Of a stretch of DNA of 64,000 nt, positions 45,868 to 63,297 are shown one piece after another (positions within the stretch are counted from its first letter, which is position 1; each line of letters starts with the position of its first letter). The stretch comes from Microbacterium sp. cx-55 (GTDB lineage: Bacteria; Actinomycetota; Actinomycetes; Actinomycetales; Microbacteriaceae), in the NCBI RefSeq assembly GCF_021117345.1, contig NZ_CP088261.1, positions 744,001-808,000 of the forward strand, in the 5' to 3' direction. The notes beneath the pieces are model-generated. The model saw only the letters and a program-made list of their open reading frames with translations, was not told the DNA's origin and made no database searches. The position numbers were made by a program, and so were the translations under genes.

Positions 45868-47190
45868 ATGCTGACCCTCACCGGCGCCGACCGCATCCTG
45901 ATCGATCCGCAGACGGAACGGGGCGGCACGCTGTCGGTCGGGCCCGACGGGCGCATCGCCGCCGAACCGTCCGCGGACCCGGATGCGGTCCACCTCGACG
46001 TGAGTGGCTGCGTCGTCACCGCGGGGCTCGTCAATGCGCACCATCACCTGCTGCAGAGCGGGTTCCGAACCCTTCCCGACACGCGGGGCGCCGCGATGCG
46101 CGACTGGTTGCCGGCGATGGCAGGGGCATATGCCGCAGCCGGCATCGACGCATCGCTGACCCGTGCGACGGCCGCCGTGGGGGTCGCGGAGTCGCTGCTC
46201 TCCGGCGTCACGACGGTGGCCGACCACCAGCTGAACTGGCCCGCACCGGGCGAATCTGCAGACCCTGTGGCGGAGACGGTCGAGATCGCGCGGGCGATCT
46301 CCGCGGCGGCCGCGTCGCTGGGGGCACGGCTGGTCTTCGTCCGCGGGTCGGCGCGCGATGACCCCGCACTCGCCGCGGCCAGCGCGGACGCGATCATCGA
46401 CGACCTGCTGCCCCGCGGCCATGTCGGCGGCGTCACGGACGACGGGATGCGGCAGATCGCCGTCGGGCCCGCGGGCGTGCACTCGGACGGCGAGGCGACC
46501 TTCCGAGCGCTCGGCGAGGTGGCCGCCCGTCACGGTGTGCGCCGACGCACCCAGGCCAACGAGCAGGTGGACACCGAGATCGCTCTGGCGCGGTACGGCC
46601 GGCGACCGCTCGACCTGCTCGAGGAATGGGGGTGGCTCGCGCCCGACGTCACGATCGCGCACCTCTGCGACGTCACCCCGGACGAGATCGACCGGCTCGC
46701 CGCGGCGGGGGTGAGTGCGACGCACGCCCCCGGATGCGACGTGCCGATGGGATGGGGCATCGCTCCGGTGGCCCGGCTGCGCGAGGCGGGCCTCCGCGTC
46801 GGGTTGGGCACATCGGGCGGCGGCTCGAACGACGCCGGACACCTGCTGGCGGACGCGCGTCTCGCGATGCAGATCTCGGGCCTCGTCGGCCCGCAGCTCC
46901 CCGCCCGCGCGGTGCTCGGGATGGCGACGGAGGATGGCGCCGTCGGGCTCGGTCGCGCCGACCTCGGGCACCTCCGGGTCGGGGCCCGCGCCGACATCTG
47001 CGTCTGGGATGTCTCCGGGGTCGCGGATGCGGGCGTCGCCGACCCGGTCGCGGGGCTTCTCTGGGCCTCGCCCGGCCGTCGTCCCCGGCACGTGGTGGTG
47101 GGCGGCCGCGTGGTCGTCCGGGACTATCGCCTCGTCGGCCACGACGAACACGCCATCGTCGCGGCGCTCCGCGCGCGCCTGCAGAGCTGA
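45868..47190 (+). CDS. Amidohydrolase, 8-oxoguanine deaminase/AtzB-like, with altered metal ligands
   Basis: 440 residues of the cog0402 aminohydrolase family. The beta-1 motif VNAHHHLLQSG and the beta-6 His (TIAHLCDVTPDEIDRL) are present. At beta-5 the usual HxHxxE block reads RTQANEQVDTE, with Gln where the metal His is normally found, and at beta-8 the usual VDGSASND reads GTSGGGSND, with Ser in place of Asp. The protein may use a different metal site, a different reaction, or be inactive. The ATG at 45868 has GGAGG directly against it, an unusually short spacing. Substrate unknown; purine- or triazine-like rings are typical of relatives. Confidence 0.8.
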   Translation: MLTLTGADRILIDPQTERGGTLSVGPDGRIAAEPSADPDAVHLDVSGCVVTAGLVNAHHHLLQSGFRTLPDTRGAAMRDWLPAMAGAYAAAGIDASLTRATAAVGVAESLLSGVTTVADHQLNWPAPGESADPVAETVEIARAISAAAASLGARLVFVRGSARDDPALAAASADAIIDDLLPRGHVGGVTDDGMRQIAVGPAGVHSDGEATFRALGEVAARHGVRRRTQANEQVDTEIALARYGRRPLDLLEEWGWLAPDVTIAHLCDVTPDEIDRLAAAGVSATHAPGCDVPMGWGIAPVARLREAGLRVGLGTSGGGSNDAGHLLADARLAMQISGLVGPQLPARAVLGMATEDGAVGLGRADLGHLRVGARADICVWDVSGVADAGVADPVAGLLWASPGRRPRHVVVGGRVVVRDYRLVGHDEHAIVAALRARLQS

Positions 47191-47192
47191 CG

Positions 47193-47238
47193 CGAACGCC
47201 AGCCGCCGCGACCTCGGGCTCACACGAACGCCAGCCGC
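47193..47238. repeat. Short direct repeat CGAACGCCAGCCGC
   Basis: Two identical 14-bp copies at 47193 and 47225, 32 bp apart, in the gap between two convergent genes. Probably slippage or recombination residue. Confidence 0.45.
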
Positions 47239-47284
47239 GGCTGACGCGGGCGAACCCGCCGCGGCAGCCTCCGATCCGCGCGGA

Positions 47285-48277
47285 TCAGAGGTCGAGCACG
47301 ATGAGCGGGCACGCCGCCCGGGAGACGCAGATCATCATGACGTCGCCGTGCTCCTGCTCGAGGGGGGTGAGCACCGAGTCCCGGTGCTCGACCTCACCCT
47401 CGAGGACCGGTACCTCGCAGGTGCCGCACGTGCCGCGGCGGCAGCTGGACAGCACGATCGTCTCGGGGGACTGCTGCCGGATGGCGTCGAGGATCGACTG
47501 GTCCGGCGCCACGGTCACGATGTCGCCGCTCGCGGCGAGTTCCACCTCGAACGGCGCGGTCCACACCGGAGCGCCGAACACCTTCGCCTCGAACCGTTCG
47601 ACGTGCAGTGCCTCGTCGGCGCGTTCGGCGAAGACCTCCTCGAGCGCTTCGAGAAGACGCGCCGGTCCGCAGGCGTAGACGACGCCGTCCGGCCCGACCT
47701 CGGCGGCGAGCGCGGCGGGGGAGAGGCGCGCGCCCTCGTCGGCGGCGTGCACCCGCATCCGATCGGGGAATGCGGTGACGAGCTCGTCCACGAACGCCAT
47801 GGTGCGACGTGACCGGCCCGCGTAGTCGAGGTGCCAGTCGACGCCCGCGGCCTCGGCCGCCGTCACCATGCTGCGGATCGCGGTGATGCCGATCCCGCCC
47901 GCAACGAAGCGGTACCGCGTTCCTGCCACCGGTTCGAAGGCGAAGTGGTTGCGCGGGCCCCGGACGCGCACGCGCTGACCGACGCTCACCTCGTCGTGGA
48001 TGCGCGTCGATCCGCCCCGGCCCGCCCGCTCGCGGAGCACGGCGATCCGCCACGTCCCGCGGTCTGCGGGGTCGCTGCAGAGCGAGTACTGCCGTTCGAC
48101 CGGGTCGCCCCCGGCGCCGTTCGGGGCGGGGAGGATCACGTCGACATGGGATCCGGCCGTCCAGGCCGGCAGGTCGCGGCCGTTCGGGGAGGCGAGGTCG
48201 AAGGCGACGACGCCGTCGGCCAGGTCGGTGCGTCCGGTCACGATCAGATCGCGCTCGACGTCGCTGAAGTAACTCAC
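47285..48277 (-). CDS. PDR/VanB-type oxidoreductase (flavin, NAD, 2Fe-2S)
   Basis: 330 residues. N-terminal flavin-binding barrel (RQYSLCSDPADRGTWRIAVL), NAD-binding domain (RFVAGGIGITAIRSMVTAAE, VYACGPARLLEALEEVF), and a C-terminal plant-type 2Fe-2S domain with SSCRRGTCGTCEVPVLEG and a later Cys in MMICVSRA. Such proteins pass electrons from NAD(P)H to Rieske oxygenases, for example in O- or N-demethylation. No oxygenase subunit is adjacent. GTG at 48277 has AGGAGAG just upstream. It diverges from the second amidohydrolase. Confidence 0.9.
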   Translation of the reverse strand: MSYFSDVERDLIVTGRTDLADGVVAFDLASPNGRDLPAWTAGSHVDVILPAPNGAGGDPVERQYSLCSDPADRGTWRIAVLRERAGRGGSTRIHDEVSVGQRVRVRGPRNHFAFEPVAGTRYRFVAGGIGITAIRSMVTAAEAAGVDWHLDYAGRSRRTMAFVDELVTAFPDRMRVHAADEGARLSPAALAAEVGPDGVVYACGPARLLEALEEVFAERADEALHVERFEAKVFGAPVWTAPFEVELAASGDIVTVAPDQSILDAIRQQSPETIVLSSCRRGTCGTCEVPVLEGEVEHRDSVLTPLEQEHGDVMMICVSRAACPLIVLDL

Positions 48278-48414
48278 ATCTCTCCTCGCCGTTCGGCCAT
48301 TCACGCTATCCGCGGCATCCGTCCGACGCGCGCTGCGCGGCATCGTTTAACAGCCCGGCAACACGAGCCGTCGCACATCGAAACACGCTGCGCGTTGAAT
48401 GCTGCCACATCAAT

Positions 48415-48431
48415 TGTTGGTCACGCCAACA
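48415..48431. promoter_or_regulatory. Inverted repeat TGTTGG-N5-CCAACA, possible operator
   Basis: A 6-bp perfect inverted repeat with 5-nt spacer lies in the 190-bp divergent gap between the PDR reductase and the amidohydrolase-ABC operon, 37 nt before the latter's start. A regulator site is plausible. Confidence 0.45.
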
Positions 48432-48467
48432 GGATTCGATGACAGTGTCGACAGGAAGGCGAGGGTC

Positions 48468-49778
48468 GTGAGCATCCATCCCGAGGATCTCGAAGCCGGT
48501 CAGCAGGTGGCGCGCCTGGACGGCGTGACCCTGCCCGACGGCACGACCGCGACGGTGCACATCACCGACGGCGCCCTGACCGACGGGCGCCAGGATGGCG
48601 CTCCGACCGGGCGCGTCAGCGCGGGGACGGATGCGGACGGCACCGAGTGGCTGCTGCTGCCGCCCGCCGCCGACCTGCACGCGCACATCGACAAGGCGTA
48701 TACGTGGAGCCTCGCGGGTGAACCCGAAGGATCGCTCGAGGATGCCGTCGCGTGCTGGCGCGAATTCGGGGCGACGCTCTCGGAGGAGCAGATCGCCGCG
48801 CACGCGCGGCGGCAGCTGGATGCCGCCCTCCGGGCCGGCGTCACCACGATCCGCACCCACGTGAACTACCACGAAGGGGCCGACCCGCTACGAGGCATCC
48901 GGGCGGTGCTCGCCGCGCGCGAGGACTACCGCGGGCTGGTCGACGTGCAGGTGGTCGCGATGCACGGGCAGATCCACGACGACGGTCTCGTCCGCGACGC
49001 CCTCGCCCTCGGGGTCGATCTCGTCGGCGCCGCACCTCACCTCAGCGACGACCCGCGCGGAGAGATCGACCGGGCGGCCGCCTTCGCGGAGGCCGCCGGG
49101 ATCGGCATCGACCTGCACACCGACGAGACCCTGAACCCCGACTCGCTCGACCTCATCGATCTCGCCGAGCGCACGCGGCACTGGCCGCGGGCGATGACCC
49201 GGTCGGCGGGCCACTGTGTGAGCCTCGCGGTCCAGCCGCCGGACCGGCTCGCAGCGGCCCTCGACGCGGCCGCGGAGGCCGGGGTCAGCATCATCGTCAA
49301 CCCGCTCACCAACCTCTACCTGCAGGGGTGGCAGCATCCGGTCTCGATGCCGCGGGCGATTCCTCCGCTGCGGGCGATCCTCGACGCGGGCGTGGCGCTC
49401 GCCGCCGGCGGCGACAACGTGCAGGATCCCTTCAATCCGCTCGGCAACGGAGACATGGTCGACGTCGCCGCATCCCTCGTGATCGCCGGTCACCTCACCC
49501 CGCGGACCGCGTGGGACGTCGTGACGGCGGGGCGTTCCCTCGCGGGCCTGCCGCGCGCGACGGGAGCCGTCGGCGACCCGGCCGATTTCGTGCTGGTGCG
49601 CTCCGCATCGGTCGCGGCGGCGCTCGCGGAGCGCGCGCCCGATCGGGTCGTCGTCCGCGCCGGCCGCGTCGTGGCGACGCGCCGCACGCACACGACGACC
49701 GTGCCCGTCCCGGCGCACGCCGCGCCCCCCGAGAGGCCCGGAATACCCGAGCGACAGAGAAAGGCGGTGCAGGCATGA
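48468..49778 (+). CDS. Amidohydrolase, cytosine deaminase-like
   Basis: 436 residues. The metal ligands look complete: DLHAHIDKAYTW (beta 1), GIDLHTDETLN (beta 5), RSAGHCVSL (beta 6), and Asp in AAGGDNVQDPFNPLGNGD (beta 8). This is the CodA/N-isopropylammelide hydrolase type, deaminating or hydrolysing cyclic amidines. GTG at 48468 is preceded by AGGAAGG about 9 nt upstream. Its stop overlaps the ATPase gene start (ATGA), so hydrolase and importer are coupled and likely share the substrate. Confidence 0.87.
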   Translation: MSIHPEDLEAGQQVARLDGVTLPDGTTATVHITDGALTDGRQDGAPTGRVSAGTDADGTEWLLLPPAADLHAHIDKAYTWSLAGEPEGSLEDAVACWREFGATLSEEQIAAHARRQLDAALRAGVTTIRTHVNYHEGADPLRGIRAVLAAREDYRGLVDVQVVAMHGQIHDDGLVRDALALGVDLVGAAPHLSDDPRGEIDRAAAFAEAAGIGIDLHTDETLNPDSLDLIDLAERTRHWPRAMTRSAGHCVSLAVQPPDRLAAALDAAAEAGVSIIVNPLTNLYLQGWQHPVSMPRAIPPLRAILDAGVALAAGGDNVQDPFNPLGNGDMVDVAASLVIAGHLTPRTAWDVVTAGRSLAGLPRATGAVGDPADFVLVRSASVAAALAERAPDRVVVRAGRVVATRRTHTTTVPVPAHAAPPERPGIPERQRKAVQA

Positions 49779-50521
49779 GCGCGACGCTCACCTCGCCCAC
49801 GTTGCGTCTGGACGACGTCACGAAGGACTTCACCACCGGCACGCGCGCGCTGACCGGGGTCTCGCTGACGGTCTCCCGGGGCGAGTTCGTCTCGGTCGTC
49901 GGGCCCTCCGGATGCGGAAAGTCGACCCTCCTGCGCCTGGCATCGGGTCTGGAGACGATCACGCACGGGACGCTCGACGTCGACGCGGCCGTGACGAGCT
50001 TCGTCTTCCAGGACCCGACCCTGCTGGAGTGGCGGAGCGCCCAGAAGAACGTCGAACTCGTCGGCGAGCTCGCCGGCACCGGCGCCGCCGAGCGCGCCCG
50101 CCGTGCCCGCGAGGTGCTCGACCTGGTCGGACTCGGCGGGTTCGAGAAGCAGCATCCGCGTCAGCTCTCCGGCGGAATGCGGATGCGGGTGTCCATCGCC
50201 CGGGCGCTCGTCGCCGAGCCGCAGCTCGCGCTCTTCGACGAACCCTTCGGTGCCCTCGACGAGATCACCCGGCTGAAGATGCAGACCGAGCTGCAGCGCA
50301 TCTTCCAGCTCAAGCAGTTCGCCGCGATGTTCATCACGCACTCGATCTCGGAGGCCGTCTACCTCTCCAGCCGGGTGCTCGTGATGAGCGGTCGGCCGGG
50401 CCGCATCGTCGACGACATCGAACTGCCCTGGTCGTACCCGCGACCGCCCGAACTGCGTTACGAGCCCGAGTTCGGCCGGATCGCCGGACACATCTCAGCC
50501 CTGCTGGAGGAGCACTCGTGA
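49775..50521 (+). CDS. ABC transporter ATPase, SsuB/ThiZ type
   Basis: 248 residues. Walker A GPSGCGKST, Q-loop SFVFQDPTLLEW, signature LSGGMRMRVSIARAL, Walker B LALFDEPFGALDE, H-loop ITHSISEAV. The LSGGMRMR signature with the FDEPFGALDE box is typical of nitrate/sulfonate/taurine and thiamine-precursor importers. Translationally coupled on both sides (ATGA before, GTGA after). Confidence 0.93.
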   Translation: MSATLTSPTLRLDDVTKDFTTGTRALTGVSLTVSRGEFVSVVGPSGCGKSTLLRLASGLETITHGTLDVDAAVTSFVFQDPTLLEWRSAQKNVELVGELAGTGAAERARRAREVLDLVGLGGFEKQHPRQLSGGMRMRVSIARALVAEPQLALFDEPFGALDEITRLKMQTELQRIFQLKQFAAMFITHSISEAVYLSSRVLVMSGRPGRIVDDIELPWSYPRPPELRYEPEFGRIAGHISALLEEHS

Positions 50522-51390
50522 GCGAGAAGACGCTGACCGCCGCCGCACCGACCGCGCCGCCGCCGCTCGGTTCACCGCGCACCGGCGGATCGTTCTCGCG
50601 GGCGGCGAGTGCGACGGGTTCGCGCGTGCTGCCGATCGTGCTGGCGATCCTCGGCATCCTGATCGTCTGGTACGCGGTGTCGTACCTCGTGCTGTCGGAG
50701 AGCCGCCGCTTCCTGCTGCCGCCCCCGCACCAGGTGTTCACCGAGACCCTCGGCAACCCCCAGGTCATCATGCCGATGCTCACGGCCCTCGGCCAGACGA
50801 CCAGCGTCGCGCTGATCGGACTCGCGATCGCGGTCGTGCTCGGGATGGGCTGGGCGATCCTCATGTCGCAGTGGCGGATCGCCGAGCGGGTGCTGTACCC
50901 GTACGCGGTCATCCTGCAGACCATCCCGATCCTCGCGCTCACGCCCCTCATCGGGATCTGGATGGGGTACGGCATCCCCGCCCGGATCGTCGTGTGTGTG
51001 ATCATCGCGATCTTCCCGATGATCTCGAACACCCTGTTCGGTCTGCAGTCGGCGGAGCCCTCGGCGCACGACCTCTTCACCCTCAACAAGGCCACGCGGT
51101 GGCAGCGGCTCACGAAACTGCAGCTGCCGGCCGCCCTGCCCGCGATCTTCACGGGGCTCCGAAACGCCGCGGGTCTGTCGGTGATCGGCGCGATCGTCGG
51201 CGACTTCTTCTTCCAACAGGGATCGCAGGGCATCGGTGGGCTGCTGCGCACCTACACGCTGCGACTCAACATGGAGTCCCTGTTCCTCGCGATCATCTTC
51301 ACCGCCATCTTCGGCGTGGTCGTGTTCTCCGTCTTCGCCGCCCTGGACCGGGCGATCGTCGGCCGCCTGTTCGGCTGGAAGAACCGCTGA
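50518..51390 (+). CDS. ABC transporter permease, SsuC type
   Basis: 290 residues with about six membrane helices, the first at about 38-58 (VLPIVLAILGILIVWYAVSY). The ATPase-docking loop is recognisable around LFTLNKATRWQRLTKLQLPA. GTG start overlaps the ATPase stop. Forms the homodimeric channel for the importer. Confidence 0.9.
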   Translation: MSEKTLTAAAPTAPPPLGSPRTGGSFSRAASATGSRVLPIVLAILGILIVWYAVSYLVLSESRRFLLPPPHQVFTETLGNPQVIMPMLTALGQTTSVALIGLAIAVVLGMGWAILMSQWRIAERVLYPYAVILQTIPILALTPLIGIWMGYGIPARIVVCVIIAIFPMISNTLFGLQSAEPSAHDLFTLNKATRWQRLTKLQLPAALPAIFTGLRNAAGLSVIGAIVGDFFFQQGSQGIGGLLRTYTLRLNMESLFLAIIFTAIFGVVVFSVFAALDRAIVGRLFGWKNR

Positions 51391-51450
51391 TCGCCCCCCT
51401 CGACCTGCTCCGCCCGCGCTCCACCCGACCCCCATCCTCTGGAGGAACCC

Positions 51451-52659
51451 GTGTCGACCGTTTCTGTTTCCCCCCGCCTGCGGCGTGCTCTCGCCGCCGG
51501 CGTCGTCCTCTCCCTCGCCGTGAGTCTGGCCGCGTGCTCGGCTGACTCCGATGCCGAACCCGATGCGGCCAGCACCGGCAGTTCGGCACCGGCCGCCGAC
51601 GCCGGCAGCGCGCTCGACCTGTCCGACGTGTGCCCGGCCACGGTCGTGATGCAGCAGGACTGGCAGCCCGAAGCCGAGCACGGTGCGATGTACGCGCTCG
51701 TCGGCGATGACTACTCGATCGACACCGACGCGAAGACGGTGACCGGTTCGCTCGTCGCCCAGGGCGTCGACACAGGCGTCGACATCGAGGTGCGCCCCGG
51801 CGGACCGAACGTCAACTTCCAGCCCGTACCCGCCCTGATGTATCTCGACACCGACATCCTGATCGGTGCGGTGAACACGGATGCGGCCATCGTCGCGGCG
51901 GCCGACCAGCCGACGGTCGCCGTCGCCTCGCAGCTCACCTGGAGCCCGCAGATCCTGATGTGGGACCCGGAGAGCCACCCGGGCGCGGAGACGATCGAGG
52001 ACGCGACGGCGGACGGCGCGGTGGTCGTGACCTCCGGCGACGTGATCCCGGCGCTCCTCCAATCGCAGGGCATGATCGATTCCTCGCAGGTGGACACCAG
52101 CTACGAGGGCACGCCGCAGCGGTTCGTCTCCGACCCGACGATCCTGCAGCAGGGCTTCGCGACGGCCGAACCGTACATCTACGAGAACGAGATCCCCGAG
52201 TGGGGTCGTCCGATCGACTACCAGCTGCTGTCCGAGATCGGCTACTCGATCTACCCCGAACCGCTCGCGGTGCGGGCGGATGCGGTCGAGGAGTACGGCG
52301 ACTGCCTCGCCAAGCTCGTGCCGATCATGCAGCAGTCGCAGCTCGACTTCCTCGAGGACCCGAGCGCCGCGATCGCGCTGATCCTGGACCTCGTCGACCA
52401 GTACGACACCGGGTGGACCTACTCGGAGGGCGTCGCGGAGTACTCGGTCGCGCAGCAGCTCGAGCTCGGCATCGTCGAGGACGACCCGGCGACCGGTGTC
52501 TTCGGCGCCTTCGACCCCGACCGCATGCAGTCGATCCTCGATGACTTCGTGCCGTTCCTGGTCGAATCCGGAAGCATCTCGTCGTCGGATGCCGACGCAA
52601 TCGACGTCGATTCGCTCTACACGAACGACTTCCTCGACACGTCGATCTCGATGGGCTGA
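51451..52659 (+). CDS. ABC transporter substrate-binding lipoprotein (NMT1/SsuA-like)
   Basis: 402 residues. Lipobox LAAC (about residues 25-28) after a hydrophobic signal. The mature part has QQDWQPEAEHGAMYALVGDD, a pattern typical of NMT1/THI5-like binding proteins that take up HMP-like pyrimidines, sulfonates or other small organic ligands. GTG at 51451 has GGAGGAA upstream. It completes the importer. Its ligand is presumably the substrate of the adjacent hydrolases. Confidence 0.87.
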   Translation: MSTVSVSPRLRRALAAGVVLSLAVSLAACSADSDAEPDAASTGSSAPAADAGSALDLSDVCPATVVMQQDWQPEAEHGAMYALVGDDYSIDTDAKTVTGSLVAQGVDTGVDIEVRPGGPNVNFQPVPALMYLDTDILIGAVNTDAAIVAAADQPTVAVASQLTWSPQILMWDPESHPGAETIEDATADGAVVVTSGDVIPALLQSQGMIDSSQVDTSYEGTPQRFVSDPTILQQGFATAEPYIYENEIPEWGRPIDYQLLSEIGYSIYPEPLAVRADAVEEYGDCLAKLVPIMQQSQLDFLEDPSAAIALILDLVDQYDTGWTYSEGVAEYSVAQQLELGIVEDDPATGVFGAFDPDRMQSILDDFVPFLVESGSISSSDADAIDVDSLYTNDFLDTSISMG

Positions 52660-52684
52660 GCGGGGCTTCTCATGACCTCGATTT

Positions 52685-52725
52685 CGTCGGCATCCGCGTG
52701 GTGGTACGCGGCGCGGATGCCGACG
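52685..52725. terminator. Bidirectional terminator
   Basis: 14-bp perfect arms CGTCGGCATCCGCG (52685-52698) and complement (52712-52725), 13-nt loop, between the convergent binding-protein and cyclohydrolase-like genes. Confidence 0.78.
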
Positions 52726-52743
52726 GAACGAGGCCGCGAAGAG

Positions 52744-53370
52744 TCAGAGCGCCGACGCGACGCCCCGGGCGATCGCGTCCAACGCGTCGGCCGCGAGGAT
52801 CGCCGCGGCGACCCGCGCGCGGAGCGGGGCGAGCGTCTCGTCCGGGCTTCCCTCGGCGACTGCGACCGTCGTGGCGGCCGTCAGGTTGCTGCGCGCGGTG
52901 ACCGCGGCGGAGCGCACCCCCGCGGCGAGCGTGTGGCCGGCGACGACCACATCCGGAGCCAGCATCGGCTCCCCGTGCTCGGCGAGCCAGGCGAGCGGCC
53001 CCGGCAGGGGCACGCCCAGCCCGGCGACGTCGAGACTCGTGACCGTGGCCTCCCGAAGCGCCTCCGCACGCGCGGCGGTCGCGGCGGCGCCATCCGGAAG
53101 CCGGAACGCCGCCACGAGCGCGGCGGATGCGGCCGCGTCGCGGTCGGCGAGAACCAGCGCGCGCTGCCTCGTTTCCGCCGCGAGGTCGAGCGCTCGCGTG
53201 CGATCCGGCCCTGCGGGCGCGTAGCCGGCGGTCATGCCGAGCACGGCGGCGCCGATCGCGAGCGTGACCGCCGCGGCCGCACCTCCGCCGGGCGCCGGTT
53301 CGGGGGCCGCGAGTCGTTCCAGCCAGGGCGCCAGGTGGCTCGTCGAAGCATCGTCTTCGGGGTGCGTCAC
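52744..53370 (-). CDS. Cyclodeaminase/cyclohydrolase family protein (FchA-like)
   Basis: 208 residues, all-helical FTCD C-terminal family. The diagnostic N-terminal block PEPAPGGGAAAAVTLAIGAAV and the later ALVLADRDAAASAALVAAF are seen. Family members act as methenyl-THF cyclohydrolase or formimino-THF cyclodeaminase. Next to MetF-like genes it most likely interconverts methenyl- and 10-formyl-THF. GTG start at 53370 has only a weak ribosome site. It diverges from the MetF-like gene with a 35-nt gap. Confidence 0.83.
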   Translation of the reverse strand: MTHPEDDASTSHLAPWLERLAAPEPAPGGGAAAAVTLAIGAAVLGMTAGYAPAGPDRTRALDLAAETRQRALVLADRDAAASAALVAAFRLPDGAAATAARAEALREATVTSLDVAGLGVPLPGPLAWLAEHGEPMLAPDVVVAGHTLAAGVRSAAVTARSNLTAATTVAVAEGSPDETLAPLRARVAAAILAADALDAIARGVASAL

Positions 53371-53405
53371 GTCGGAAGTCTAGGACGGCGACGGGCGGCG
53401 ACCGG

Positions 53406-54236
53406 ATGAGCGCCATCGCAACTCCGCACCCGGAATTCTTCTCGCTCGACGGACCCGACCGGCTCGCCGACCGACGCGGAACCCTCGGGCGCACCGCCGC
53501 CGCCGAACGGTTCGCCGAGCGCACCCGTCGGCCGGGCCTCGTGTGCGTGACCCTGCCGGCCGAGGTCGCGACGGTCGCCGCCCTGCGCACGGCCGCGCGC
53601 CTGCTCGGACCGGTGGTCGACGCTGTGCTGCTCGATGAGCCCGCGGGTGGCGCCGGCCTCGCCCTCACCCACCGGGCGGCCGTGCTGCGCGCCGAGGGCG
53701 CCGAGGTCATCGTGGTGCTCGGTCGCCGCGATCGGAACCGGGTGGCGCTGGAGGGCGAACTCGCCGCGCTCGCCGACATCGACGTCGCCGCCGTACTCAT
53801 CGCGGCTGGGCACGGCACGGCGGGCGATGCGGCGGCGGACGATCCGTCCGGCGGAGTGTGCGACCTGAGCGCGGCGCAGCTCGCCGCGCTCGCCCGGCGC
53901 GCGGGTCACACGGTCGCCGTGCCCGAGCCGTTCTCCGCGACCGAGGATCTCGCGCCCGAACCGGATCTCCGGGTGCTCGGAGCCGGCGAGCCGCGGCCGC
54001 CCGCCGCGAGGCCGCATCCGGCCCCGCCGATGCTCGCCGTCCTGCCCGTCGACCTCGCCGATGCGGCGCACGGCCCGGCCGCGATCCGAGCGGTCGTCGC
54101 AGCGAGCCGCGCCGCGACTCGCCGGCCGGGCGTGGTCGGGGTGCTCCTCGAGGGGCGCCGCGGCGGACGAACGGATGCGGCCGTCTCCGCGACGATCGCG
54201 CGCATCGCGGGAGCTGTCCGGGAGGCGCAGGCATGA
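53406..54236 (+). CDS. Divergent MetF-like protein (methylene-THF reductase family)
   Basis: 276 residues. Similarity to MTHFR is visible in PEFFSLDGPDR (aligned with the EFFPP block carrying the catalytic Glu, here E10), in LAALADIDVAAVLIAAGHGT, and in the RDRNR motif (LGRRDRNRVALEGEL). The C-terminal half is weakly conserved and shorter than usual. It is translationally coupled (ATGA) to a second MetF-like protein, so the two may work as a complex. A pure structural or inactive role is possible. Confidence 0.65.
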   Translation: MSAIATPHPEFFSLDGPDRLADRRGTLGRTAAAERFAERTRRPGLVCVTLPAEVATVAALRTAARLLGPVVDAVLLDEPAGGAGLALTHRAAVLRAEGAEVIVVLGRRDRNRVALEGELAALADIDVAAVLIAAGHGTAGDAAADDPSGGVCDLSAAQLAALARRAGHTVAVPEPFSATEDLAPEPDLRVLGAGEPRPPAARPHPAPPMLAVLPVDLADAAHGPAAIRAVVAASRAATRRPGVVGVLLEGRRGGRTDAAVSATIARIAGAVREAQA

Positions 54237-55282
54237 CCGCGACTCTCGAGACGGCCCGGCACGCGGGGTGCCCGAAGACCATGACGTACGGCCCGTGCGG
54301 CGGAGTGAACCGCGACGGCACCTGCGAGGTCGCCCCGACGCCCTGCGTCTTTCTCACCGATCGGCTGCCCGTGCCCTGGACCGCGCGGGCGGAGGCGCCT
54401 AGAACCCCGCCGCTGTCAGTGGCGGCGCGGGAGTTCGAAGCCATCCGGATGCGGCGCCCCGTCATCCTCACCGGTTTCCCGGTGCGGGCGATGGTCGCCG
54501 ACGACGTCCTCCGCGCCGCCGATCTGCTGCGCGGCAGTGTCGACGCCGTACTCTCGGGCGATGTGGGTCGGTCCCGCACCCAGTTCCCGCCGTCGTACCG
54601 GGCGCTGCTCATGAGCCAGGCGGGGATGCGGGTGTGGATGGGCGCCAACACCCGCGACCGCACCCGGGACGCCCTCGACCGCGAACTCGCCTCGATGCGC
54701 GAGATCGGCGTCGCTGGGGTGCACTGCGTGACTGGCGACCACACCCGCACCGGCGACCGTCCCGACGCACGGCCCGTCTTCGACCTCGAATCGACGTCGC
54801 TCATCCCGCGGGCGCGCCAGCTCGGTCTGCTCGTCTCGTTCGCCGAGTCTCCCGATGCGCCCCCGGTCGCCGTGCGGGGCGGCCGGGTGCGCGAGAAGCA
54901 GCGCGCCGGCGGGCAGTTCTGCTTCACGCAGTACTGCGGTGACGCCGCCGATGTCGCGGCATTCGTGGACCGGTGCGCGGATGCGGGCGCCGCCGTCCCG
55001 GTCTTTCCGGGCGTGCCGCTCGTGGTCGACCGCGACGGCGCGGAGATGCTCGCCTCTTTCCACGCGGCGACGCTGCCGACGGGGTACCTGGACCGGCTGT
55101 TCGCCGCCGAGGACGTGCGCCGCGAGGGCATCCGGCTGGCCATCGAGTACGGTCGGTCGTTGATCGAGGTGCTCGGTGTCGGGGGACTCGTCGTTGCGGG
55201 CGGCGCCCGGCACGGTGACGAGGCCGCCTATGCGCGAGCACTCGCGGTCGTGGCCGCCGAGCTCGGGGGAGGGCGGCCGTGA
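54233..55282 (+). CDS. MetV-MetF fusion: zinc-motif methylene-THF reductase-like protein
   Basis: 349 residues. The N-terminal about 45 residues carry the MetV-type Cys motif HAGCPKTMTYGPCGGV with further cysteines in GTCEVAPTPC. The rest is a MTHFR-type barrel: ANTRDRTRDALDRELASM, GVAGVHCVTGDHT, ARPVFDLESTSLI, and KQRAGGQFCFTQYCGD. In acetogens MetV and MetF are separate partners. A role in oxidising methyl-THF made by a demethylase, or reducing methylene-THF, fits. It starts in the stop of the first MetF-like gene. Confidence 0.75.
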   Translation: MTATLETARHAGCPKTMTYGPCGGVNRDGTCEVAPTPCVFLTDRLPVPWTARAEAPRTPPLSVAAREFEAIRMRRPVILTGFPVRAMVADDVLRAADLLRGSVDAVLSGDVGRSRTQFPPSYRALLMSQAGMRVWMGANTRDRTRDALDRELASMREIGVAGVHCVTGDHTRTGDRPDARPVFDLESTSLIPRARQLGLLVSFAESPDAPPVAVRGGRVREKQRAGGQFCFTQYCGDAADVAAFVDRCADAGAAVPVFPGVPLVVDRDGAEMLASFHAATLPTGYLDRLFAAEDVRREGIRLAIEYGRSLIEVLGVGGLVVAGGARHGDEAAYARALAVVAAELGGGRP

Positions 55283-55287
55283 GCGGA

Positions 55288-55896
55288 TCAGCGGTTGTGC
55301 TGCTGCTCCTTCACGACGAGCACGCGGCATACGGTACCGGGCGGAGTGCGCCATTTGTGGCGGATGCCGCTCTCGTAATAGGTCGCGTCGCCCGCGTGCA
55401 GCAGCACCTCGGAGTCCTCCAGCACGACGATGATCGCGCCCTCGAGCACGTAGACGAACTCTTCCTCATCGTGTTCCCACCAGATGCCGTCATCGTCGAA
55501 GCTGCCCGAGAACACCATGGGCAGAAAACGCGCGCGATGCTGCGCGAGCACAGCCACCGGCCCGGTGCCGGCGTCGACCGGCGACCCGGACGACTGCCGG
55601 TACACGTGATAGTTGCCCTCGGGTCGGTCGGGTGTCTCGTCGGTCAGCAGGTCCTGCTGGGTGGTGCCGAGCGTGCGGGCGACGCGGAACAGCGACGCCA
55701 TACTGAGCCGTTCCAACCCTCGCTCGACCTGGCTGAGGAAGGAATGCGACAGCCCCGCCTCCGCCGCCGCTTGCGTCAGGGTGAGCCCGCGGCGCTTGCG
55801 GAGTTCGCGGATGCGGGCGCCCAGGGCACGTGCCGCGGCGTCCAGGTCGGCGGACCGATCCGCCCGCACCGACGATGCCTCATCCGTGTCCGTCAT
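55288..55896 (-). CDS. XRE-HTH and cupin domain transcriptional regulator
   Basis: 202 residues. Helix-turn-helix at about 30-85 (RELRKRRGLTLTQAAAEAGL, SHSFLSQVERGLERLSMASL) and a C-terminal cupin (DEEFVYVLEGAIIVVLED, LHAGDATYYESGIRHKW). Such regulators sense small ligands in the cupin and often control amine or amino-acid catabolism. Its gene ends 5 nt from the convergent MetV-MetF gene and diverges from the FAD oxidase operon, so it probably controls the cluster. Confidence 0.9.
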   Translation of the reverse strand: MTDTDEASSVRADRSADLDAAARALGARIRELRKRRGLTLTQAAAEAGLSHSFLSQVERGLERLSMASLFRVARTLGTTQQDLLTDETPDRPEGNYHVYRQSSGSPVDAGTGPVAVLAQHRARFLPMVFSGSFDDDGIWWEHDEEEFVYVLEGAIIVVLEDSEVLLHAGDATYYESGIRHKWRTPPGTVCRVLVVKEQQHNR

Positions 55897-55987
55897 GGGT
55901 GCAGATTACCGTCGCTCGGGCACTCGGACCGTTCGTCCGGTGCCGAACGTCGCGGCGCGACCAGACCCGGGGCGCGCGCGCCCCGTG

Positions 55988-56016
55988 CAGCGAGTGATCC
56001 ATCACCCGGCTCGCTG
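55988..56016. promoter_or_regulatory. Nested inverted repeat upstream of the FAD oxidase operon
   Basis: Outer arms CAGCGAG and CTCGCTG enclose an inner GTGAT-CC-ATCAC. It lies in the divergent gap between the XRE-cupin gene and the oxidase operon and could be that regulator's site. Confidence 0.4.
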
Positions 56017-56054
56017 TGCACCACACGCGGGAGATGCTATTCAGGAGGACGAAC

Positions 56055-57377
56055 GTGACAGCTATCGACTACACCGCACTCGAAGCGGCGCTGGCCGACC
56101 TGCTCGGCCCACGCGGCGTGAGCAGCGACCTGCGCCAGCGCGAGCGGGCATCCGTCGACGGGGCCCGGATGTCGCCGATCATCGCCGAGCTGCTGCCGCT
56201 CGGCGTGGCCGATCTCGTGGCGTTCCCCACGACCGCGGAGGAGATCGCGGCGGCGGTCGCGATTGCCGCGCGATTCGGTGCGCCCATCACGCCGCGGGGC
56301 AAGGGGACGGGCAACTACGGTCAGGCGATCCCGATGACGGGCGGGCTCGTGATCGACACGTCGCGCGCGCGCACAGTGCACGGCGTGGACGGCGACACCA
56401 TCACGGCCGACGCGGGGGCGCCGATGACCGCACTCGAGCAGGCGGCGCGCGCCGCGGGCAAGCAGCTCTGGATGTACCCGTCGACCGTGCACACCACGAT
56501 CGGCGGCTTTCTCGCCGGCGGATCGGGGGGCACCGGCACGATCGCGCACGGCAGTAACGACATGGGCTTCGTCGTCGCCCTCGACGTCGTCACCCCCGTG
56601 TCGGACGGCGCGCTCGTGCACGTCGAGGGCGACGAGGCCCAGCGGTACGTGCACAACTACGGCACGGCCGGGATCATCGCGCGGGCGACCGTGCGCGTGG
56701 AGGACCTGCAGGACTGGCGGGGGCTGTACGCATCCTTCGACGACTTCTCCGGAGCGCTCTCGGTCCTGCGCGCGCTCGGCCGACTGCATCCGGCGCCGCG
56801 CCTGGTCTCCGCGGATACCCCGCACATCTCCGCCCAGCTCCCGCCCGACGACGCGTTCCCGCCCGGGCGCAGTTCGCTGCGGATGATCGCCGACGCCCGC
56901 ACGGTGGCCGAGGCGACCGCGCTGATCGAGTCCGCGGGGGGACGCGTCGAGGACGTGCGCGAGGGTCCCACCGTGTCGGCCGCGATCTCGGTGCTCAGCT
57001 ACAACCATCCGATCGAATGGCTGCAGAAGTCCGAGCCGGGGGTCTACTTCCACGTCGAGGTGTCGGGCGACGCGCTCGTCGACCGCATCGACGAGGTGCA
57101 CGCCGTATACCCCGGAGGACTTCTGCACATCGAGGCCGGTCACACCGTGCCGATCGGGATGCTGGCGGGCGTGTACGAGAGTCCCGAAGCCGTGTACGCG
57201 GGAATCGCCGCGCTGAACGCTCTGGGGGTCGGGGTGCACAACCCGCACCAGTGGAACGTGGACTTCAAACTCGCGCAGACCGTCGAGCTCGCTCGAGAGA
57301 CCGACCCTCGCGGATTGCTCAATCCGGGCAAGCTCAACCCCGACTACGCCGGCCCGACCAAGGGAGCCATCCGATGA
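56055..57377 (+). CDS. FAD-binding oxidoreductase, GlcD/LldD-like (PCMH type)
   Basis: 440 residues. The FAD-binding PCMH domain shows VAFPTTAEEIAAAVAIAARF, TPRGKGTGNYGQAIPMTGGL and GGFLAGGSGGTGTIAHGSN. The C-terminal GlcD-type cap ends with GLLNPGKL, typical of lactate/glycolate/hydroxyglutarate dehydrogenases. GTG at 56055 has a perfect AGGAGG 6 nt upstream. It is coupled (ATGA) to the creatininase-family gene. The substrate is presumably a hydroxy acid or amine from the same pathway. Confidence 0.87.
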   Translation: MTAIDYTALEAALADLLGPRGVSSDLRQRERASVDGARMSPIIAELLPLGVADLVAFPTTAEEIAAAVAIAARFGAPITPRGKGTGNYGQAIPMTGGLVIDTSRARTVHGVDGDTITADAGAPMTALEQAARAAGKQLWMYPSTVHTTIGGFLAGGSGGTGTIAHGSNDMGFVVALDVVTPVSDGALVHVEGDEAQRYVHNYGTAGIIARATVRVEDLQDWRGLYASFDDFSGALSVLRALGRLHPAPRLVSADTPHISAQLPPDDAFPPGRSSLRMIADARTVAEATALIESAGGRVEDVREGPTVSAAISVLSYNHPIEWLQKSEPGVYFHVEVSGDALVDRIDEVHAVYPGGLLHIEAGHTVPIGMLAGVYESPEAVYAGIAALNALGVGVHNPHQWNVDFKLAQTVELARETDPRGLLNPGKLNPDYAGPTKGAIR

Positions 57378-58171
57378 CCGCACCGTTCACCCCGCCCGGG
57401 CGCCGCTGGGACGACCTGTCGGGACCCTCGCTGGTGGCTGCGACATCGGACCGGTCGATCGCGGTCGTGCCGATCGGTGCCATCGAGCATCACGGGCCGC
57501 ATCTGCCGCTGCGGACGGACGCGCTGATCGCCGAGGCGGTCGCCTCGGCGGCCGTCGAGCGGGTGGCCGCGCAGGGCGTCGATGCGTGGCTGCTCCCGAC
57601 GATCGCGTACGCGAAGTCCGACGAGCACCACTGGGCGCCCGGAACGCTGTGGATCGAGGGCACGACCCTCCTCGACGAGCTGATCGAGATCGGTCGTTCC
57701 ATCGCGATGACCCCGGTCCGAACCGTGGCGTTCGTCAACGGGCACGGCGGCAACGTGATGCTGCTCGGCTGGGTCAACCGCGAGCTGCGACGCCGGTTCG
57801 GGCTGCGATCGTTCTCGATGCCGGCGGGTGTCGGCGGCGCCGGCGACGGGGCGGACGGGCGCCCCGACGAGCTCGGTCAGGGGATCCACGCCGGCTTCGG
57901 TGAAACGTCCATCGTCATGCATCTCGCCCCGCACCTGGTCGCCCCCGAGATGCCGCCGCGCAACGTGCCGGAACGCATCGCGGCGATGACGCACATCGGG
58001 TTCAATCGGAAGCCGGTGATGTTCGGGTGGACGAGCGACGATTTCGGCCCGACGGGTGTCATCGGCGACGCGACGGGCGCGAACGCCGCGGCCGGTCGTG
58101 ACCTCTTCGACCGCGGCGTGGACTTCGTCAGCGAAGCGCTCGTCGAGATCGACGGCTTCGAGTTCGGATAG
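57374..58171 (+). CDS. Creatininase family amidohydrolase
   Basis: 265 residues. Metal-binding blocks: VPIGAIEHHGPHLPLRTD (Glu/His/Asp), YAKSDEHHWAPGTLWIEG, VNGHGGNVMLLG, and a late Glu in FGETSIVMHL. The family includes creatinine amidohydrolase, formamide hydrolases in folate synthesis and mycofactocin maturation protein MftE. Next to two amidohydrolases and an importer, ring-opening or amide hydrolysis of the imported compound is likely. Starts in the stop of the oxidase gene. Confidence 0.87.
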   Translation: MTAPFTPPGRRWDDLSGPSLVAATSDRSIAVVPIGAIEHHGPHLPLRTDALIAEAVASAAVERVAAQGVDAWLLPTIAYAKSDEHHWAPGTLWIEGTTLLDELIEIGRSIAMTPVRTVAFVNGHGGNVMLLGWVNRELRRRFGLRSFSMPAGVGGAGDGADGRPDELGQGIHAGFGETSIVMHLAPHLVAPEMPPRNVPERIAAMTHIGFNRKPVMFGWTSDDFGPTGVIGDATGANAAAGRDLFDRGVDFVSEALVEIDGFEFG

Positions 58172-58179
58172 GACGCACC

Positions 58180-58818
58180 ATGGACACCCCTCCCGGCCGG
58201 CTCGTCATCGACGTGCCGATCATCGATCACCAGACGGATCCCGTGCAGTCCGACGATCCGGTCGACGACCCGTTGGCGTTGGCCGCCTCCTGGCTGCCCG
58301 CCGCGGGCGCCGACCGGATGCTGATGACGCTCTCGACCGTCGACTCCGACGGTTTTCCGCGTGCGCGGACGGTGATGCTCAGCGAGTTCGACGGTGAGCG
58401 CTTCTTCTTCCACACGGATGCGGCGAGTCGGAAGGTCGCCGATCTGGCGGCGGATCCGAAGGTCGCCCTGACGCTGCTCTGGCCGGGATTCACCCGGCAG
58501 ATCGTCGTGCAGGGAACGGCCGAGGTCGCTCCCGAGGGCGAGGTCGCCGACGCCTACGCCACCCGCTCCGCCTATCTGCAGCAGCTCGCGTGGCTGAACA
58601 CCGACGCATTCGCGCAGCATCCGAGATCCGTGCGTGAAGAGCGCTGGGCGGAGTTCGCCGTCCGCCATCCGGCGCCCGCGCAGCCGGAGAGCTGGGTCGG
58701 ATACGCCGTGACCCCGCACCGACTCCTGTTCTGGGTCTCGAACCCGCGAACGGCGAGTCGCCGGGTGGAGTACACGCGTGGTGCGGCGGGATGGGATCGG
58801 CGCTACCTGCCCGGCTGA
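58180..58818 (+). CDS. Pyridoxamine 5'-phosphate oxidase family flavoprotein
   Basis: 212 residues. FMN split-barrel with LSTVDSDGFPRARTVMLSEF, FFFHTDAASRKVADLAADPK and a C-terminal dimerisation region (FWVSNPRTASRRVEY). It resembles PdxH but lacks the full C-terminal RLH motif of canonical enzymes, so a different oxidation within the cluster is possible. Follows the creatininase gene by 8 nt and ends the operon. Confidence 0.83.
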   Translation: MDTPPGRLVIDVPIIDHQTDPVQSDDPVDDPLALAASWLPAAGADRMLMTLSTVDSDGFPRARTVMLSEFDGERFFFHTDAASRKVADLAADPKVALTLLWPGFTRQIVVQGTAEVAPEGEVADAYATRSAYLQQLAWLNTDAFAQHPRSVREERWAEFAVRHPAPAQPESWVGYAVTPHRLLFWVSNPRTASRRVEYTRGAAGWDRRYLPG

Positions 58819-59964: not shown

Positions 59965-60059
59965 TGCGTGTCAGCGGTGATGAGCCGCGAACCTCGACCG
60001 GCAGCGTGAGCGCGGCCGCGAGGCAAGCCGACTACGAAAAGCCGACGGCGACGCGCCGG

Positions 60060-60248
60060 TTACTGCTTCTTGCGTGGTGGTCTTCCGGCAATCAGGAACA
60101 CCGCCGCAGCGAGAAGGACTAGTGCGCCGATGAGTGTGATGAGCCACTGATTCGTTGACAGACCGATGAAGATGACAACTACGAAAGGCACCAGCGCGGC
60201 GATAATCGCCGTGTCGGTGAACTGGTGCTTCGGGAAGCTGTTCATCAT
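60060..60248 (-). CDS. Small two-helix membrane protein (immunity-like)
   Basis: 62 residues with two hydrophobic helices (about 13-30, AIIAALVPFVVVIFIGLS, and 35-54, WLITLIGALVLLAAAVFLIA) and a basic C-terminal tail (RPPRKKQ). The ATG at 60248 overlaps the stop of the upstream tiny gene by 4 nt (ATGA), the same coupling used elsewhere in this genome. The layout resembles a bacteriocin immunity protein, but no family is recognised. Confidence 0.55.
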   Translation of the reverse strand: MMNSFPKHQFTDTAIIAALVPFVVVIFIGLSTNQWLITLIGALVLLAAAVFLIAGRPPRKKQ

Positions 60249-60415
60249 TCGCATGCCGATATGACGTTGGCTCCGGCGACCATGAGTGCTCCAACTTCCG
60301 CGCCAAGCAGCAAGCCGGCGCCGACGCCGGCAAGTCCACCCGACGCTATCGTTGCCGCGCCACCTCCGAGGATGGTGGCTTCGATAGCAACGACCGTGCG
60401 CAGCTTGATGTTCAA
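60245..60415 (-). CDS. Gly-rich hydrophobic small peptide (bacteriocin-like)
   Basis: 56 residues from a TTG start with GGGGGA about 5 nt upstream. The N-terminal about 18 residues (MNIKLRTVVAIEATILGG) end in Gly-Gly and could be a leader. The remaining 38 are rich in Gly/Ala with GxxxG-like spacing (SGGLAGVGAGLLLGAEVG), as in pore-forming bacteriocins. The only Cys is the penultimate residue. It overlaps the following membrane-protein gene. Too short for confident homology. Confidence 0.45.
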   Translation of the reverse strand: MNIKLRTVVAIEATILGGGAATIASGGLAGVGAGLLLGAEVGALMVAGANVISACE

Positions 60416-61218
60416 TCTGTTCCCCCGTGCCCCCGAGTATCAACTGCTGCTCACACTGGAGACCTCGAAGAAATTCCACAAGCAAAAGAAAAAGAACACC
60501 CTGGGACTTCGTGCACTTGTAACCTGCGGCTCTCCAACCGATGATGCCTCCACTTGCGAGGACTGCTGGAGCACGGAGCCGCAACTGCACTCCGTCGAGT
60601 GCGGCTCCTCCCCGAACTGGCGGCACCGGACTTGAGAGCCCGTACGTTTCTCGTTGCGCTCTGATTTGAACGGCTACGACTCGCGTGCTGTTCGCTCGGA
60701 TGTGGCAGAGGTTACCGCAGATGCCCATACCCAGGCTTTGTGCTCGATGCCGGCCATCGTAAAGCGGATGGCCTCACGCCCGTTACCGCGCTAGAACAAT
60801 GTTCTTTTCTTTGTGGATGTGCGCACGGTCCTCGATCAGGTCGCGGCGCAGCCGGATCGGGTTCCGTCGTCACGCGCGACCACTTGCAGTTGCGCTGAGC
60901 CCGTGTCGCGGGCTACTTGCCGAATGGTCGAGGCCGCGGTTTGATCCTCATCAACATCAACATCAACATCAACGTCAATTCTGATTCTCCCCCAGCACAA
61001 CTCGCTCTGCGAGATCGCCGCATGCTCGATGCGGCATGGACAGTAACCCTCGCGAGCGACGCGGCTCGCGCAGATGTGCTGTCGAGTAAGTCGGGAGTTG
61101 TGGACACTTGCCGCGGGTGGATGTCCGCCAAAAGGTCGACATGCGGGAGGTCCTGTCTTGCGTCATGATTGGCCTCGACGGGTGTCGGGGGATGTGTCGC
61201 CGCCGCATTGGGGGAGCA
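60416..61218. other. Intergenic region with no convincing gene
   Basis: About 800 bp of lower GC. A 9-bp hairpin (GGAGCCGCA, 60575-60583 with 60600-60608) and a hexanucleotide repeat are present. On the minus strand near 60795-60870 a short stretch reads RRDLIEDRAHIHKEKNIVLA before a stop, perhaps a gene fragment. Other open frames lack ribosome sites and normal codon use. The promoter of the secreted-protein gene is probably near its 3' end. Confidence 0.5.
60949..60978. repeat. Hexanucleotide microsatellite (CATCAA)5
   Basis: Four exact CATCAA units and a fifth CGTCAA. Unit length is a multiple of three, so slippage would not shift a reading frame. Unusual in this genome. Confidence 0.85.
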
Positions 61219-62460: not shown

Positions 62461-62978
62461 AGGGGAATGGGCTGATCGTCGATCCACGAGCTGTGCGCCA
62501 CGCACCAACGTGGCTCGGGTGGGCTGCCTTGCTGGCCGCGCTTGCCGTGCCTTTCGCGATCTCACTCACGACGGTGATGGAATTATGGAAGGGGCGTTGC
62601 ACTGAGGAGGTTTCATGGACCTTTGCTCCATTGCTCCTGAGTTGCGGAGTCCCATCGCCCCCCGCCTTAATCACAGGCTGGATGCTGACTGTAGTGACGG
62701 TTCTATCGGCTGCTGTTGCGATTGTGGTGGCAGGCATGGCCTCCAACCACGCGCGGTCTCCCTACCGCCGGAATCTATTCGGGGACATGTACTTTGCGGG
62801 TACGTTGCTGCTCGTCATCGCGACGGTTTCCTGTGCGATTGCTCTGACGGTGGAAAGTACCTGGGGGCGTGGGGCATGGATTTTCTTCGGCTCCGCGAGC
62901 GGCTTGGGAGTGATATGCGTTGCACTTGTTCTGAAGCCGCTTTTACAAGCGGTGCTCACGCCACGGCTCATAAACTGA
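62397..62978 (+). CDS. Four-helix membrane protein of unknown function
   Basis: Up to 193 residues. Four helices: WLGWAALLAALAVPFAISLT, GWMLTVVTVLSAAVAIVVAG, MYFAGTLLLVIATVSCAIAL and WIFFGSASGLGVICVALVLK. The start is uncertain: the GTG given overlaps the secreted-protein gene by 64 nt; a GTG near 62495 just before the first helix would give about 160 residues. No family recognised. Overlap or close spacing suggests co-expression with the secreted protein. Confidence 0.65.
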   Translation: MLVLLGLRDRARYILGLQQLLEGNGLIVDPRAVRHAPTWLGWAALLAALAVPFAISLTTVMELWKGRCTEEVSWTFAPLLLSCGVPSPPALITGWMLTVVTVLSAAVAIVVAGMASNHARSPYRRNLFGDMYFAGTLLLVIATVSCAIALTVESTWGRGAWIFFGSASGLGVICVALVLKPLLQAVLTPRLIN

Positions 62979-63297
62979 GCGCTCGATGGCAGGCTCCGGG
63001 CGTCGCCGCGCGTCCGTGACGTCCCCGGAGTAGACGCATGTGCTCGCTACCCGTCACCATGTCCTGCGGGTTTACCCGTGGTGAGACACTCGACTCCCTT
63101 CCGACCTCGACCGCACGCGCGCAGGGGTATCGCGGCGGCCGAAGGAACGCGGATGTACACCGTGTCGAGTCTTGTGGCGTCAGTGCTCCACGGGGGAGAG
63201 TGGAGACGCGGGGGCGGCGCACGAGAATGGGACCGGCCCGGGCCGCTGCATCCGCCGTGTGATCGAGCCGAGAGACGTCCGCGACGAAGGAGTGCAC
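62979..63297. other. Intergenic gap before gabD, nothing recognised
   Basis: Base composition returns to high GC here. Short open frames lack ribosome sites. The gabD promoter must lie in this gap but no clear -35/-10 pair is seen. Confidence 0.5.

Follow-up and report, generated by a model that had tools for sequence, protein, structure and literature searches.

A conserved actinobacterial gene cluster proposed to scavenge nitrogen from a purine- or pyrimidine-type heterocycle

Introduction

What might a bacterium degrade with a gene cluster that joins two amidohydrolases, an importer, flavin enzymes and folate-type proteins? Such a cluster of 13 genes was delimited in Microbacterium sp. cx-55, at positions 45868-58818 of the 64,000-nucleotide stretch analysed here (the window; G000:C1:744001-808000, GC content ~70%, host genome 3.27 Mb). 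A preliminary description, made from the letters and their translations, proposed the import and degradation of an N-methylated heterocycle or creatinine-like compound, with transfer of the methyl carbon to tetrahydrofolate (THF). With a probability of about 0.5, we consider the cluster to be a nitrogen-scavenging catabolic module for a purine- or pyrimidine-type N-heterocycle, in which one-carbon enzymes resembling methylenetetrahydrofolate reductase (MTHFR) are an optional add-on; the earlier interpretation as a whole is partly supported. Gene content, synteny, folds, co-occurrence and a promoter box motif, all obtained with computational tools, carry this reading, and from them we infer the substrate class, the order of the reactions and the one-carbon role. 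No description of this gene set was found in the titles and abstract starts of the open-access papers listed in the literature searches, a scope that leaves most subscription journals outside.

Gene content and conserved order

The gene set named in the preliminary description is present, and Pfam and NCBIfam recovered all of its families with two exceptions: the binding protein, for which neither library had a match at E 0.001, and the first MetF-like gene (MetFs), which had no Pfam model and a weak match to one NCBIfam model. The reported 4-nt overlaps are real and occur at four gene junctions (ATGA, GTGA, ATGA, ATGA). Three of the genes (PDR, FchA-like and XRE) are read from the minus strand, which divides the block into seven runs by orientation and implies several transcription units.

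The gene-neighbourhood check that had been set beforehand found the genes syntenic in relatives. Scanning genome contigs with an alignment of MetVF, the fusion of a MetV (DUF5981) domain with an MTHFR-type domain, gave 143 confirmed loci, from which the best 80 were kept (19 of them shorter than 20.9 kb). The window's gene order recurs in 11 of these 80 (L092-L101 and L126, from Microbacterium, an actinobacterial metagenome-assembled genome and Quadrisphaera granulorum); L093 stops before the creatininase-family (Creat) and PNPOx genes. Median identities to the window in these 11 strict loci were highest for the importer ATPase (83%), its permease (80%), Creat (80%, 10/11), the GlcD-like oxidase (78%) and the first amidohydrolase, AmidoA (75%), followed by the binding protein (71%), the PDR reductase (68%), MetVF (68%), PNPOx (64%, 10/11) and the XRE regulator (63%), and were lowest for the second amidohydrolase, AmidoB (57%), the FchA-like protein (48%, 8/11) and MetFs (47%, 10/11, some of these matches possibly being MetVF itself).

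Because 11 of the 80 loci repeat this order, the grouping, judged by these alignments, is more than chance. Among the alternatives, a nitrogen island that is generic or arose by chance, with parts acting on unrelated compounds, survives best: its several transcription units on both strands and the gain and loss of parts between loci would fit it, but the order conserved in 11 loci and the strong co-occurrence across genera make it unlikely.

For the co-occurrence we defined a core of seven genes, namely AmidoB, the importer, the GlcD-like oxidase, the creatininase-family protein and PNPOx. At least five of the seven accompany MetVF in 50 of the 80 loci, and core clusters without MetVF exist as well. 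Among 199 genomes of the same family, MetVF was found in 21, the binding protein in 32 and uricase in 56; MetVF coincided with the binding protein in 20 (Fisher p 3e-18) and with uricase in 19 (p 3.6e-10), and the binding protein with uricase in 29 (p 3.6e-16), all three values being uncorrected for kinship. Twelve same-family genomes carried the binding protein without MetVF; ten of these were fetched, and G004 and G123, where the binding protein lies ~39 kb or more away from uricase, were left out. Three of the 12 same-genus genomes listed, the window's included, have the GlcD-like oxidase at E 1e-80. In a phylum sample of 396 genomes, 45, again counting the window's, had a MetVF match at E 1e-15, and the other matches were 26-38% identical where values were given. 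By sequence comparison, then, the cluster is real and conserved.

Importer and catabolic enzymes

The importer is of the ATP-binding cassette (ABC) type and comprises a TauB/SsuB-type ATPase (49775..50521, plus strand) and a TauC/SsuC/SaoP-type permease (50518..51390, plus), both assigned by Pfam/NCBIfam, together with a lipoprotein-like binding protein (51451..52659, plus). The sequence profile of the latter gave no solved relative; relatives came from the fold search alone, with ThiY, a thiamin-binding protein and Thi5 as the folds closest to the model, which points to a ThiY/NMT1-type fold like that of proteins binding pyrimidines and thiamin.

AmidoB (48399..49778, plus) resembles cytosine deaminase (NF005759, 177.8 bits, under the cutoff of 403). 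In an alignment with PDB 1r9z, inspected by eye, it has the HxH, HxxE, H and D positions of cytosine-deaminase-type amidohydrolases, which we take to be the catalytic residues. AmidoA (45868..47190, plus; Pfam Amidohydro_1; PDB 3ls9 and 7ww2) belongs to the TrzN/8-oxoguanine-deaminase/AtzB group, and scored 238.1 bits against the 8-oxoguanine deaminase model NF006055, under the cutoff of 532. Its nearest characterised relatives are N2,N2-dimethylguanine hydrolase, 8-oxoguanine deaminase, AtzB and TrzN (a group treated in PMC13054789). The motifs TQA(N/G)EQVD and GTSGGGSND are conserved, and every orthologue covering them has Ser in place of the catalytic Asp and Gln in place of the third metal His (HxxE), positions that were assigned by eye through the TrzN alignment. 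By these two residues AmidoA departs from the 8-oxoguanine/N2,N2-dimethylguanine deaminase group.

The downstream enzymes are a GlcD-like FAD oxidase or dehydrogenase (56016..57377, plus; PF01565), whose nearest solved relative is PDB 6v42 (E 2e-45; a literature search for this entry gave no paper), the creatininase-family hydrolase Creat (57374..58171, plus; PF02633) and a PNPOx-like FMN protein (58180..58818, plus; PF01243, under the pdxH cutoff). A PDR-type reductase with FAD and 2Fe-2S domains (47285..48343, minus; Pfam FAD_binding_6 and Fer2) is encoded divergently from AmidoB, and an XRE-cupin regulator (55288..55896, minus; Pfam/NCBIfam) lies upstream of the oxidase.

Taken together, these parts suggest the following sequence of events. 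The genes would be expressed under nitrogen limitation, as a candidate GlnR box suggests, with the XRE-cupin protein probably sensing the substrate. The ThiY-type importer would bring in a flat N-heterocycle with an aminopyrimidine-like ring; a modified purine or a relative of the pyrimidines is the likeliest candidate. From it AmidoB would cleave an exocyclic amine by hydrolysis. The FAD oxidase, PNPOx and PDR proteins might then oxidise or reduce the product, and the creatininase-family enzyme and AmidoA would hydrolyse later intermediates, releasing ammonia. MetVF, in this clade with MetFs and the FchA-like protein, could move a one-carbon fragment to or from THF as an accessory step.

A Rieske N- or O-demethylase was considered as the partner of the PDR reductase and rejected: the search of the genome returned three proteins, by eye a suf-operon ferredoxin, an MBL-Rieske protein and QcrA, all unrelated. 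A Rieske motif scan of the loci gave a further Rieske-like frame at L157; of its other matches, those at L037 and L041 look spurious and two are the genome's own. At L206:65-1144 we also observed a VanA-type Rieske oxygenase that adjoins a COG0402-type amidohydrolase match (c34) and a cluster of PDR, MetVF, importer and oxidase genes; no match to it was found in any other fetched locus (E 1e-5).

Candidate regulatory elements

The divergent PDR/AmidoB promoter holds a candidate GlnR-type nitrogen box, TTAAC-n6-GCAAC-n17-GAAAC (48347..48384, plus; motif match). A pattern built on this box has a single match in the window, against 0.03 expected. It contains the consensus t/gTAAC-n6-Gc/aAAC that passages of PMC10704036 give for the GlnR box of Mycobacterium smegmatis, and the M. 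smegmatis GlnR regulon table (PMC3662644) lists purine-type permeases and a putative allantoicase. Upstream of AmidoB, 12 of the 16 usable window-type loci (two of the 18 given lacked upstream sequence and were dropped) and 11 of 43 other loci attain a box score of at least 11/14, compared with 1/160 and 1/430 for the respective shuffles. Upstream of GlcD the same score was reached in 0/18 window-type and 0/46 other loci (shuffles 0/180 and 3/460). All 12 window-type positives upstream of AmidoB come from the window and its 11 strict orthologues, while L167 and L209-L211 make up the four loci below the score.

Two further elements were noted. Between the XRE and GlcD genes lies a weak candidate operator, GAGTGATCCATCACCCGG (55992..56009, plus; motif scan); its motif GAGTGAYYCATCACCCGG occurs only in the window and 3 of the 11 strict loci (exact pattern in L093, L100 and L126), and 27 of 100 shuffles also matched at up to 3 mismatches. 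A strong hairpin between the convergent binding-protein and FchA-like genes (52660..52743) folds at -53.7 kcal/mol, a value without shuffle control, and is probably a two-way terminator.

Relation to urate and allantoin catabolism

The neighbourhoods of related clusters hold genes for uricase, allantoinase, HIU hydrolase, OHCU decarboxylase and allantoate amidohydrolase, with one representative of each above its NCBIfam cutoff, as well as a PucG-like aminotransferase (by eye) and xanthine dehydrogenase domains. MetVF falls into two types according to the residue at the Gln183 position of MTHFR: Gln in 17 of the 80 loci, the strict orthologues included, and Asn in the remaining 63. At least two urate/allantoin genes adjoin 42/63 Asn-type vs 0/17 Gln-type loci (Fisher 2.8e-7, kinship not corrected), and in loci also carrying the core the figures are 26/36 and 0/14. 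By this split in the gene neighbourhoods, the physical purine link is a property of the sister (Asn) type. Core clusters without MetVF adjoin uricase at L175-L182 and xanthine dehydrogenase genes at L175, L180, L182 and L183; in the genomes that hold L183 and L184, no uricase was found. The idea that the cluster replaces uricase was rejected, since core clusters coexist with it.

The window's genome keeps its purine genes in a separate island at ~113-156 kb of G000:C1 (L194-L196). The island holds an allantoinase (526 bits), matches to HIU hydrolase, OHCU decarboxylase, a PucG-like protein and formamidase, AllC and adenosine deaminases above cutoff, and a xanthine-dehydrogenase-type protein. 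Because HIU hydrolase and OHCU decarboxylase are present there without a TIGR03383 uricase, the genome may encode a urate oxidase outside that family.

The urate link of the sister clusters would also be explained by the pteridine-to-xanthine route of older biochemistry, and hence by an alternative in which a pterin or folate fragment is degraded and the MTHFR- and FchA-like proteins are folate-binding folds recruited to act on it. The xanthine dehydrogenase genes next to some of the sister clusters, the planar-ring type of the binding-protein fold and a weaker match of AmidoA to PDB 2paj, an isoxanthopterin deaminase, agree with that proposal. We nevertheless regard it as quite unlikely, as the catalytic residues of AmidoA are altered and visual inspection of the neighbourhood proteins displayed, without a dedicated search, revealed no gene specific to pterins.

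One-carbon genes

The preliminary description had also coupled the cluster to folate chemistry through two MetF-like proteins and an FchA-like cyclohydrolase. MetVF (54233..55282, plus) does have the MTHFR fold, with PF02219 above its own cutoff, and is of the Gln type; against the MetF model TIGR00676 it scored 37.5 bits (cutoff 293.7). MetFs (53406..54236, plus), identified by its similarity to MetVF (35% identity over 150 aa), is a degenerate paralog without the MetV domain and is 99% identical to a Microbacterium sp. cx-59 protein. The FchA-like protein (52744..53370, minus) is a fast-evolving, variable FTCD_C member (PF04961, 75 bits) that reached 50.2 bits against the methenyl-THF cyclohydrolase model NF045657, under the cutoff of 275. 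Beyond 8 of the 11 strict loci, the only matches to its gene at the threshold used were weak ones at L106 and L038. Because core clusters without MetVF exist, the FchA-like gene is present in 8/11 and one MetF is degenerate, the folate side appears to be an optional accessory to the core; an MTHFR-fold member is there, but an obligate link is not borne out.

The glyA and folD genes next to the cluster had been taken as part of the same picture. They were rejected as functional partners: glyA was found in 1 and folD in 2 of the 11 orthologous loci, which suggests a mostly incidental adjacency. The start chosen for glyA (43307) overlaps that of a divergent hexosaminidase-like gene (43324; family by eye), and the real glyA start may be downstream.

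Formamidase genes occur near some related clusters (such as L103, L112, L210 and L211; the L112 copy is PF03069) and near several sister-type loci, and no listed locus has both formamidase and the FchA-like gene. This alternation is weakened by the formamidase in the purine island of the window's own genome. Formamidase-type (k51) genes were seen at L103, L112, L209, L210 and L211 near MetVF or near related importer, oxidase and creatininase-family clusters, some of these loci also having flavin-reductase or cupin genes. The distribution of the FchA-like and formamidase genes suggests that carbon may be handled at the formyl or formimino level. One could then imagine a THF-linked route that takes a purine- or pteridine-like ring apart under aerobic conditions, in which the amidine carbon leaves at that level and is captured by the FTCD_C cyclodeaminase-like protein and the Q-type MetV-MetF pair, and related clusters release formamide by formamidase. 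Such a scheme is a long shot; if true, it would parallel, in aerobic form, the purine fermentation of clostridia, and MTHFR-fold proteins would comprise a Gln type that binds folate and an altered Asn type tied to urate catabolism.

The degradation of creatinine, methylhydantoin or another N-methyl compound with transfer of the methyl carbon to THF, as first proposed, is improbable. A creatininase-family gene beside MTHFR- and FchA-like genes speaks for it, as do distant relatives of MetVF (L086, L087 and L088, from other actinobacterial families), which adjoin one gene family (k43); its member at L088 is an aminomethyltransferase of the GCV_T type, a neighbour that also supports folate chemistry for the wider MetVF family. 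However, Creat scored only 77.8 bits against the creatininase model TIGR04448 (cutoff 235), MetVF is dispensable, and no creatinase, sarcosine oxidase or N-carbamoylsarcosine amidase was found among the 13 cluster proteins scanned, nor any GcvT-type methyltransferase or Rieske oxygenase (the GcvT search covered the cluster, the Rieske search the whole genome). A creatinine pathway was therefore rejected on the model cutoffs and the missing partner enzymes. Least probable is the salvage or degradation of a thiamin-type pyrimidine (HMP/FAMP-like), for although the closest folds to the binding protein and the pyrimidine-deaminase type of AmidoB fit it, the association with uricase and allantoinase would be left unexplained and visual inspection of the neighbourhood proteins displayed, again without a dedicated search, revealed no gene of thiamin biosynthesis.

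Flanking sequence

Downstream of the cluster, at 60000-64000, the GC content falls to ~0.60-0.64, and this stretch is possibly an acquired segment. A 450-aa protein that looks exported is encoded at 61108-62460; no Pfam or NCBIfam family matched it.

Discussion

An import-and-degradation cluster for an N-heterocycle, the general part of the preliminary description, is upheld by the synteny, the ThiY-like binding protein, the deaminase-type AmidoB and the candidate GlnR box. Several observations weigh against a purine- or pyrimidine-type substrate and nitrogen control. The purine link is weakened for the window's own MetVF type, which stands beside two or more purine genes nowhere, core-bearing or otherwise, and no purine-specific enzyme lies within the window cluster. 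TIGR03383 uricase had 0 matches in the window's genome; of 16 other genomes bearing all or part of the cluster, it was found in 4 and not in the remaining 12 (0/10 for the strict-orthologue genomes other than Quadrisphaera). The predicted ThiY-like fold does not determine the ligand of the binding protein, and because this protein is just 38-48% identical to 14 sister-type binding proteins, its ligand may differ from theirs. AmidoA is without one metal histidine and without the catalytic aspartate of deaminases, and no electron acceptor of the PDR protein was identified; by eye, none of the genome's three Rieske matches looks like a ring-hydroxylating oxygenase. The nitrogen box was noticed in the same promoters before scoring, half of the 12 positives are very similar relatives, and the box was found in just 11 of 43 other loci. 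Finally, MetVF was not found in three same-genus genomes searched (G106, G164, G537), so the module looks patchy even inside the genus.

This apparently nitrogen-controlled module is shared by several actinobacterial families and includes at least four enzymes without an assigned reaction (AmidoA, the FAD oxidase, the creatininase-family protein and MetVF). Were the substrate a modified purine, pyrimidine or pteridine, the module would be an unrecognised nitrogen-recycling route and would provide functions for a MetV-MetF fusion family annotated just as methylenetetrahydrofolate reductase and for an amidohydrolase with a non-canonical active site.

Comparison with known systems

Like importers of the ThiXYZ and SsuABC types, the transporter pairs an SsuABC-type ATPase and permease with a ThiY-type binding-protein fold. 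Unlike ThiY (PDB 3ix1), its binding protein is only 19% identical in the structural alignment, ~100 residues longer than the solved chain, without a Pfam match and linked to deaminases and oxidases. Creat shares the Pfam superfamily of creatininase but is not creatininase proper; it falls well under that cutoff and is nearer MftE, though under its cutoff too (129.9 vs 172 bits). AmidoA retains the Gln, Glu and His positions of the N2,N2-dimethylguanine hydrolase/8-oxoguanine deaminase/AtzB/TrzN group (by eye) and differs from it in the Ser and Gln substitutions; TrzN has Thr where AmidoA has Ser. The MetVF family differs from MetV-MetF methylenetetrahydrofolate reductases in lying far under the MetF cutoff, with either Gln or Asn at the Gln183 position. 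The urate-allantoin clusters of Microbacteriaceae combine uricase, HIU hydrolase, OHCU decarboxylase, AllB, AllC, a PucG-like aminotransferase and xanthine dehydrogenase. Sister-type clusters are often joined to them, whereas the window type is not, and its genome, without a TIGR03383 uricase, has most of these genes separately.

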